This document shows, piece by piece, positions 49,549-50,781 of a stretch of DNA of 64,000 bases; positions within the stretch are counted from its first letter, which is position 1; every line of letters begins with the position of its first letter. The translations under genes and the position numbers were made by a program. The notes under the pieces are model-generated. The model worked only from the letters and a program-made list of their open reading frames with translations. It had not been told where the DNA came from and ran no database searches. The stretch is from Microlunatus sagamiharensis (lineage in GTDB: Bacteria > Actinomycetota > Actinomycetes > Propionibacteriales > Propionibacteriaceae): assembly GCF_900105785.1 (NCBI RefSeq), contig NZ_LT629799.1, positions 186,001 through 250,000 of the forward strand, written 5' to 3'.

Positions 49549-50781
49549 GTGCCTCTTCTCCCCGCGCCCCCGTCCACCGTCGACGGCGCGAGCCTGGGCG
49601 ACGTCGAGGCCTGGGTCGCGCAGCACCTCGGCGACCTGACGCTGGAGGGGCCCGACGGTGTCCGGGCGGGCGGGTTCGACGGCGGGCAGTCGGCGGCCGA
49701 CGCCGCGCTCGCCACGCTGGACATCAGCGGCTACGCGAACACCCGCAGCACCGTGCTCCCGGAGGAGCGGCGGGGAGCCAGCCGGCTGTCGCCGTACATC
49801 CGCCACGGGCTGCTCCTGCTGCCGCAGGTGTCGGCCGCGGTCGCCGACGCCCCCTCCTTCGACCGCAAGCGCTTCCGCGACGAGCTGCTCTGGCAGGAGT
49901 ACGCCCGGCACGTGTACGCCCGTCTCGGGCGGCGGTTCCGCCGGGCGCTGCGCAACGAGTCGCCGGCCGAGGGGCGGGCCACGTGGCACCGGCCGGGGTG
50001 GGACCCAGAGATGGCGTGCATGGACTTCGTCACCGACGAGCTCCACGGGCAGGGCTGGGTGGTCAACCAGACGCGCATGTGGCTCGCCTCGCAGTGGGCG
50101 GTCCGCGCGGGGCTCGACTGGCGCGAGGGCGAGCAGGCGATGTTCGTCCACCTGCTCGACGGCTCGCGCGCGGCCAACGGCCTCGGCTGGCAGTGGACGG
50201 TCGGCGCCGGCAGCACCAAGGCGTACGGGTTCAGCCGCTGGCAGGTGCAGAAGCGGGCCCCGCAGCTCTGCCGCCGCTGCCCGCTGCGCGACGCCTGCCC
50301 GATCCAGGAGTGGCCCGACGTCCGCCTCCAGCGCGTCGACGACCGGGCCGACCTGGCGCGCGGGCCGATCCCGGCCGGGCCGGAGGAGGTCGAGGGTGAG
50401 GGCGGCGACGCCGTCTGGCTGACCGCCGAGTCGCTCGGTGACGCCGACCCGGCGCTGGCCGCCGACGACGACCGGCCCGCCGTGTTCGTCTTCGACGAGC
50501 CGCTGCTGGCCACGCTGCGGCTCTCGGGCAAGCGGCTGGTCTTCCTGGCCCAGACCCTCGGCGAGCTCGCCGCCCGCCGTCCGCTCGAGGTGCGCCGCGG
50601 CGAGGTCGTCACCGAGCTCGAGGGGCGTCGCCTGGCCGCGACCTGGACGCCCGTGCCCGGCTGGCAGCAGCGTGCCGCCCGCCTGCAGCCCGTCGAGGTC
50701 CACCCGTGGCCGTGGCTCGTCCGGCCCCGCCCGGCGGGGATCGGCAGCTACTCCGCCTGGCGGCGGGACCTCAAGGTCTGA
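49549..50781 (+). CDS. Photolyase/cryptochrome-like FAD protein with swapped domain order
   Basis: A 410-residue protein. Residues ~40-235 are a photolyase FAD-binding domain: GASRLSPYIRHGLL, LLWQEYARHVYARLG, VTDELHGQGWVVNQTRMWLAS and GLGWQWTVGAGSTKAYGF. CRRCPLRDACPIQEW (Cys241, 244, 250) resembles the CxxC...CPfNxlYW motif of iron-sulfur photolyases, and Cys157 could be the fourth ligand. The alpha/beta domain normally at the N-terminus is missing there. A similar piece follows at ~288-360 (VWLTAESLGDADPALAA, AVFVFDEPLLATL, FLAQTLGELAARRPLEVRRG). Possibly repair or light sensing. The start GTG lies 7 bases after a TAGAAG box. Confidence 0.72.
   Translation: MPLLPAPPSTVDGASLGDVEAWVAQHLGDLTLEGPDGVRAGGFDGGQSAADAALATLDISGYANTRSTVLPEERRGASRLSPYIRHGLLLLPQVSAAVADAPSFDRKRFRDELLWQEYARHVYARLGRRFRRALRNESPAEGRATWHRPGWDPEMACMDFVTDELHGQGWVVNQTRMWLASQWAVRAGLDWREGEQAMFVHLLDGSRAANGLGWQWTVGAGSTKAYGFSRWQVQKRAPQLCRRCPLRDACPIQEWPDVRLQRVDDRADLARGPIPAGPEEVEGEGGDAVWLTAESLGDADPALAADDDRPAVFVFDEPLLATLRLSGKRLVFLAQTLGELAARRPLEVRRGEVVTELEGRRLAATWTPVPGWQQRAARLQPVEVHPWPWLVRPRPAGIGSYSAWRRDLKV

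Follow-up and report, generated by a model that had tools for sequence, protein, structure and literature searches.

A predicted CPD-type photolyase with reversed domain order and Fe-S-type cysteines in Microlunatus sagamiharensis

A gene of the actinobacterium Microlunatus sagamiharensis encodes a photolyase-like protein in which the FAD-binding helical domain comes first, raising the questions of what stands behind that domain and which lesion a protein of this layout, carrying an iron-sulfur type set of cysteines, would repair. The window analysed here is a stretch of 64,000 nucleotides (contig positions 186001–250000 of a 4.4-Mb genome), and the gene occupies its positions 49549–50781 on the forward strand, at the coordinates of the original prediction, as a 410-codon open reading frame (ORF) with a GTG start. 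The start site is common to most orthologues in a nine-row alignment (A1), which begin with MPLLP or alike. Judged from sequence and model, the product very probably belongs to the NewPHL/SPL class and acts as a light-driven CPD photolyase, in an Fe-S-bearing form with permuted domain order. The features on which this reading draws are as follows.

49549..50781, + strand: whole gene, predicted reversed-order (NewPHL/SPL-type) photolyase, 410 aa, GTG start (Pfam, orthologues)
49549..49668, + strand: residues 1–40, N-terminal helical lead-in with helix 16–30 (model, invariant residues in A1)
49669..50400, + strand: residues 41–284, FAD-binding helical domain and linker (Pfam, phmmer/hmmsearch to 1tez/1owl, Foldseek)
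50017..50019, + strand: Cys157, predicted Fe-S ligand 1 (on the first FeS-BCP Cys)
50065..50079, + strand: Asn173–Met177, CPD-type lesion-contact positions (on 1dnp N341 and M345 and the FeS-BCP His366/Leu370 positions)
50119..50121, + strand: Trp191, predicted to be the distal member of the Trp electron-transfer pair (on 1dnp W359)
50176..50196, + strand: Asn210, Trp214 and Trp216 (on 1dnp N378, W382 and W384)
50269..50298, + strand: Cys241, Cys244 and Cys250 (CxxC-x5-C), predicted Fe-S ligands 2–4 (in the FeS-BCP CxxC...C register)
50401..50778, + strand: residues 285–410, alpha/beta domain with strands 288–292, 311–316, 346–351, 362–365 and 383–385 (model, hhalign, Pfam)

The original prediction had the FAD-binding domain begin near residue 40 with almost nothing ahead of it. 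The domain does come first, but the leading forty residues are not empty: they hold a conserved and confidently modelled helix (residues 16–30) in which W22, V23, H26, L27 and G28 are invariant in A1. Pfam places FAD_binding_7 at residues 111–226 (E 2e-8) and, at E values up to 1, no other domain in the protein. Absent from it are thus both the N-terminal DNA_photolyase domain (PF00875) of class I enzymes and the N-terminal PF04244 domain of FeS-BCPs, the genome's one PF04244 place being elsewhere. An N-terminal helical domain with no alpha/beta domain ahead of it is the arrangement of NewPHL/SPL. Over the FAD domain, a profile of 25 orthologues (A2) matches the class I CPD photolyases 1tez and 1owl at E 5e-25. 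The structure prediction that had been called for, an AlphaFold2 model built from the window protein and 47 relatives, is confident (mean pLDDT 92.2, pTM 0.91) and has the helical part followed by an alpha/beta part. For the FAD domain, Foldseek ranks class I photolyases highest (2j07 at E 1.9e-6) and places the FeS-BCP PhrB (5lfa) at 3.3e-4. The motifs that had drawn attention to the protein lie at residues 81–87 (SPYIRHG), 211–221 (GLGWQWTVGAG), 289–303 (VWLTAESLGDADPAL), 311–320 (AVFVFDEPLL) and 345–351 (PLEVRRG), as described.

Orthologues with the same domain order, the existence of which had been posed as a check, were found. Of 57 related genomes, that of M. sagamiharensis included, nine hold near-full-length copies. 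Across the phylum, matches that extend into the C-terminal domain were obtained in 30 of 396 genomes (again with its own); 29 of these matches span 367 or more of the 408 model positions and one (G421) meets a contig end. Any match at all was obtained in 148 of the 396 genomes, and the remaining matches, among those listed, cover the FAD part only and are therefore ordinary photolyases. A search of genome contigs yielded 525 candidate stretches, 498 of which encode a relative; by their titles, the best 80 of these 498 are 79 Actinomycetota and one Myxococcota metagenome-assembled genome (MAG). Within that best 80, the closest named relative is Microlunatus flavus (87%), and the proteins of Rhodococcus and Rhodococcoides, the genus in which R. 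fascians is now placed, are 67–69% and 65–67% identical over the best segment. Our largest alignment has 105 rows, namely the window protein, these 80 loci and 24 loci from the genome search, with some genomes represented twice. In a FAD-domain tree made by a quick method (57 rows), 12 actinobacterial rows form one clade (support 100) and the photolyase families come apart from one another; the tree does not resolve the fork at which actinobacterial, Deinococcus, Ruegeria/Asticcacaulis and class I-type rows join, and its class II row sits on a long branch.

Plasmids hold relatives as well. There were 58 plasmid records with a match, from which six were fetched. Three Deinococcus plasmids (L145, L146 and L149) encode proteins of 456–472 aa that share this layout and all four Cys; their sole annotation is ‘FAD-binding domain-containing protein’. 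In two of the three, the C-terminal domain gives a clearer Pfam DNA_photolyase match than that of the window protein does. A Persicobacter plasmid (L150, Bacteroidota), left out of later comparisons, has a FAD-domain match in an ORF that, by eye, is without a photolyase-like N-terminal domain; judged by its sequence, the protein may be another NewPHL-like one without the Cys set. Two further loci deserve mention. The Myxococcota MAG contig (L137) has a copy at 60% identity, next to an FeS-BCP gene, either through a binning error or through transfer from an actinobacterium. Besides the nine near-full-length copies there is a broken one in G024, a genome of the same family (L010, contig 1, about 2311970–2313146): the gene is divided into two segments that overlap but differ in frame, one of them containing a stop, and is either a decayed copy or a sequencing error.

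The four cysteines lie at residues 157, 241, 244 and 250, as originally noted, and they are conserved in the orthologues, being invariant in alignments of 9, 25 and 48 rows and in 105 of 105 rows of the largest set (80 of them the best of 498 loci); L010, L040, L042, L043, L045, L047 and L058 stand outside all of these counts. Their suspected likeness to the FeS-BCP set was borne out by hhalign: residues 1–284 align with actinobacterial FeS-BCPs (18 of 19 loci, L169 being left out) at P 1.9e-11 over 239 columns, a comparison made without shuffle control, and Cys157, Cys241, Cys244 and Cys250 fall on the four FeS-BCP Cys. In PhrB, the Fe-S cysteines are residues 350, 438, 441 and 454 (extract of PMC3204975). 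Four conserved Cys are shared both with the Fe-S subgroup of SPL and with the FAD domain of FeS-BCPs; they are kept in all three Deinococcus proteins and in neither of two alphaproteobacterial ones (Ruegeria, Asticcacaulis). On this pattern, the set is predicted to hold an Fe-S cluster.

For the active site, correspondences with 1dnp (Escherichia coli) were counted along the profile alignment. In addition to the positions listed above, E112 and W115 fall on E274 and W277. By homology, Asn210 is presumably the flavin-N5 Asn, Trp214 the proximal Trp and Trp216 the lesion-stacking Trp. E112, W115, N173, R176, W191, N210, W214 and W216 are each found in 105 of 105 rows (80 from the best of 498 loci), and M177 in 100 of them (four have Leu, one Thr). 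These are CPD-type active-site residues, as in NewPHL/SPL. Ser206, next to the FAD site, is likewise invariant (105/105, including the best 80 of 498), and Asp occupies its place in 1dnp and 1tez as well as in the Deinococcus and the alphaproteobacterial proteins, a difference that counts against the preferred reading. Trp214 and Trp191 would make a pair like that of the D. shibae NewPHL, for which a mere Trp dyad is described (extract of PMC8948257). In the FeS-BCP alignment, Asn173 takes the place of the latter His in the HHI motif (His366 in PhrB) and Met177 that of Leu370; the His of FeS-BCPs is thus replaced by Asn in every one of the 105 rows. Asn stands at the His366 place in CPD I enzymes (PMC3204975, in the part consulted), and in PhrB the H366N exchange abolished (6-4) repair, the CPD counterparts being Asn and Met (extract of PMC4619345). 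As far as sequence can tell, CPD-type contact residues and Fe-S-type cysteines are therefore combined in one protein, so that such cysteines need not mean (6-4) repair.

Behind the FAD domain, by model and by profile, stands the alpha/beta domain, as in NewPHL/SPL. The model runs, with E for strand and H for helix, E288–292, H301–305, E311–316, H317–323, H327–343, E346–351, H353–357, E362–365, H370–379, E383–385 and a helix at 401–408, and we take the strand-helix order of residues 288–408 to be a short form of that of the photolyase N-terminal domain. The original prediction had recognized a photolyase-like alpha/beta stretch at residues 288–360; its kind and its C-terminal place hold, but its extent does not, since the domain reaches the protein end and has a fifth strand at 383–385. 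What is present is therefore a compacted alpha/beta domain and not residues 288–360 only.

The reversed order itself agrees with three lines of evidence: the element order of the model, hhalign and the Deinococcus relatives. Residues 285–410 (the program retained 45 of 48 rows) were aligned with class I-type N-terminal domains (10 of 21 ORFs, those with a clear N-terminal start motif) at score 32.9 and P 1.1e-4, positions 13–76 on 14–82. These 62 columns represent the first half of the C-terminal domain, about residues 297–359. In 200 column shuffles, no score exceeded 24.9 and no P was below 0.0028; reversing the profile brought the score to 9.7, and the FAD domain, as a control against the same target, gave P 0.16. 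The A2 profile also places residues 301–341 on residues 27–67 of 1owl, within its N-terminal domain, at 6.7 bits, a match not significant by itself. The Deinococcus C-terminal domains match that of the window protein at P 1.3e-15 (hhalign) and the class I-type domain at P 3e-6 over 97 columns. In two of the three proteins, PF00875 is matched behind the FAD domain from model position 2 or 3 to 110 (E 7e-4 and 0.001; 20.0 and 19.5 bits, under the curated Pfam cut-off of 26.6).

Separate searches with the two halves, by HMM and by structural alignment, had been suggested as a check, and only the FAD half reached photolyases directly in both. Pfam gave no match at E 1 for the C-terminal domain of the window protein, and PF00875 is absent at E 1 from 44 of 48 actinobacterial C-terminal domains, the other four having a best E of 0.035. 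With the isolated domain, Foldseek returned nothing at E 0.001 or better: an unrelated protein of viral origin leads by E value (0.039, at probability 0.41), and next comes a photolyase of class II (E 0.066, at probability 0.98 and TM 0.53). By hhalign, the domain is not significantly similar to FeS-BCPs (P 0.059) and does not match that of the two alphaproteobacterial proteins (P 0.12). Run on 40 genomes, with at most 109 candidates scored per genome, the domain profile recovered the family in 8 genomes and gave 12 weak matches, none at a photolyase place found earlier; canonical photolyases were not found. The domain is nevertheless likely a permuted photolyase alpha/beta domain, with support that is indirect and comes from hhalign, the model order and the Deinococcus relatives.

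The genome has three more photolyase-family genes: one of class I type (3.07 Mb), one at 4.07 Mb that by its sequence is taken for a class II photolyase and an FeS-BCP gene at 39 kb. Upstream of the reversed-order gene, on the same strand, lie two genes read as sucC and sucD. A conserved operon with these was considered and rejected because sucC and sucD both flank the gene within 6 kb (a shorter distance where a contig ends) in 1 of 80 loci (the best 80 of 498), that of the closest relative. Between sucD and the photolyase gene there is an inverted repeat whose 27-base arms match perfectly around a loop of 5 bases (49424–49450/49456–49482). It is perhaps a hairpin that separates the two transcripts, and it escapes the terminator scan, which asks for a T-run; the promoter and terminator scan gave no match. 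An FeS-BCP gene is in the flank of 4 of the same best 80 of 498 loci (L096, L099, L121 and L137), too few for a claim of linkage, and on G150 contig 25 an FeS-BCP match and a reversed-order photolyase match are ~0.9 kb apart.

Three other readings were weighed. The C-terminal domain could be an unrelated Rossmann-like fold that merely resembles the photolyase alpha/beta domain, a reading favoured by the weak matches of the isolated domain, dehydrogenases and phosphopantetheine adenylyltransferases among them, and by the failure of its profile to retrieve canonical photolyases from the 40 genomes. We regard it as unlikely: the hhalign match sets the near start of the domain on the near start of the class I-type domain, in order and above all 200 shuffles, the homologous Deinococcus domain matches Pfam DNA_photolyase directly, if under the cut-off, and photolyases have the top Foldseek probabilities among the matches listed (50 rows).

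The protein might repair a different lesion, the Fe-S cysteines marking (6-4) activity as in FeS-BCPs. The long alignment of the FAD/Cys part with FeS-BCPs fits such a reading; so does the proposal of (6-4) activity for Phr4, Phr5 and Phr6 from their Cys, together with the finding that phr4/5 are protective against UV-C and hardly against UV-B (extracts of PMC9426592). Against it stand the Asn at the place of the His essential in PhrB, where the same exchange kills (6-4) repair, the adjacent contact Met (100/105 rows, 80 from the best of 498 loci) and the FeS-BCP gene already present in the genome, and we consider it quite improbable. Hardly different, and if anything a shade less probable, is a cryptochrome-like light sensor with no repair activity. 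Repair could be covered without this protein, given the three other photolyase genes, and there is no conserved neighbourhood to argue from; however, the lesion-contact residues that were checked are retained, and CPD repair has been reported for the NewPHL of D. shibae and M. mesophilicum (retold in an extract of PMC9426592).

On the preferred reading, that of a CPD photolyase, the enzyme is probably active. FAD would be seated in the N-terminal helical domain and, when reduced, be excited by blue light; it would give up an electron that splits a cyclobutane pyrimidine dimer bound close to Trp115 and Trp216, and the flavin would be re-reduced via Trp214 and Trp191. Cys157, Cys241, Cys244 and Cys250 would bind a [4Fe-4S] cluster with a structural role where the helical domain ends. 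As for the C-terminal domain, it would be the photolyase alpha/beta domain in shortened form, moved behind the helical domain and packed on the FAD domain, probably without an antenna. Single-stranded DNA may be favoured, by analogy with NewPHL.

Photolyases of the reversed-order kind have already been described and, taking together the accounts of NewPHL/SPL, those of Phr4/5/6 and the kinship to the SPL of R. fascians, all parts of the present finding are in print. The R. fascians SPL of Xu et al. 2021 (Mol Biol Evol) reportedly binds FAD and an Fe-S cluster and repairs CPDs, and some SPL members have four Cys. Like the window protein, SPL is short and has no N-terminal alpha/beta domain, and by description there is no clear difference between the two; the Rhodococcus/Rhodococcoides relatives are 65–69% identical (among the best 80 of 498 loci). 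NewPHL and SPL (Emmerich 2020; Xu 2021) are retold in extracts of PMC13274461, PMC9649867, PMC9426592, PMC9178010 and PMC9498864. There, NewPHL/SPL photolyases are given an inverted domain order (PMC9426592), and SPL is described as short, without the N-terminal alpha/beta domain and as a CPD photolyase with an Fe-S cluster (PMC9649867).

Phr4/Phr5 and Phr6 (Synechococcus/Cyanobium) have the same order, with the FAD domain first and the DNA photolyase domain second, and Cys at 169, 254, 257 and 263, i.e. steps of 85/3/6 by published positions versus 84/3/6 in the window protein. They are often split into two ORFs, whereas the window protein is a single ORF, and their authors guess at (6-4) activity because of the Cys, whereas the residues of the window protein point to CPD (Phr data from extracts of PMC9426592). 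NewPHL (Dinoroseobacter, Methylobacterium; Prochlorococcus Phr7) shares the inverted topology, FAD domain first, and the conserved Asn at the flavin, has a C-terminal Z-domain and is reported to prefer single-stranded DNA. The Ruegeria and Asticcacaulis proteins, taken for NewPHL-type, differ in being without all four Cys and in the unmatched C-terminal domain. FeS-BCPs (PhrB, CryB; Pfam DPRP) have the four Fe-S Cys in the register of the window protein, but with an N-terminal alpha/beta domain and the (6-4) His in place of a C-terminal domain and Asn, with a third-to-fourth Cys gap of 12–15 residues against 5 (PMC3204975, in extract) and, in the quick FAD-domain tree, in a separate clade.

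Reversed-order photolyases bear on the origin of the photolyase/cryptochrome superfamily and on the purpose of its Fe-S cluster. Tentatively, and with a little more doubt than belief, we suggest that the actinobacterial and Deinococcus proteins (and probably Phr6) are true circular permutants with a five-stranded C-terminal domain and the FeS-BCP Cys cluster that act as CPD enzymes. If so, the cluster would be a shared ancestral trait of the superfamily and not a mark of (6-4) repair. The features of the window protein speak for a direct test of the published (6-4) guess for Fe-S reversed photolyases. Beside these known systems, the window protein, well conserved and confidently modelled, offers a clean actinobacterial case in which CPD-type contacts and Fe-S cysteines go with a permuted order.
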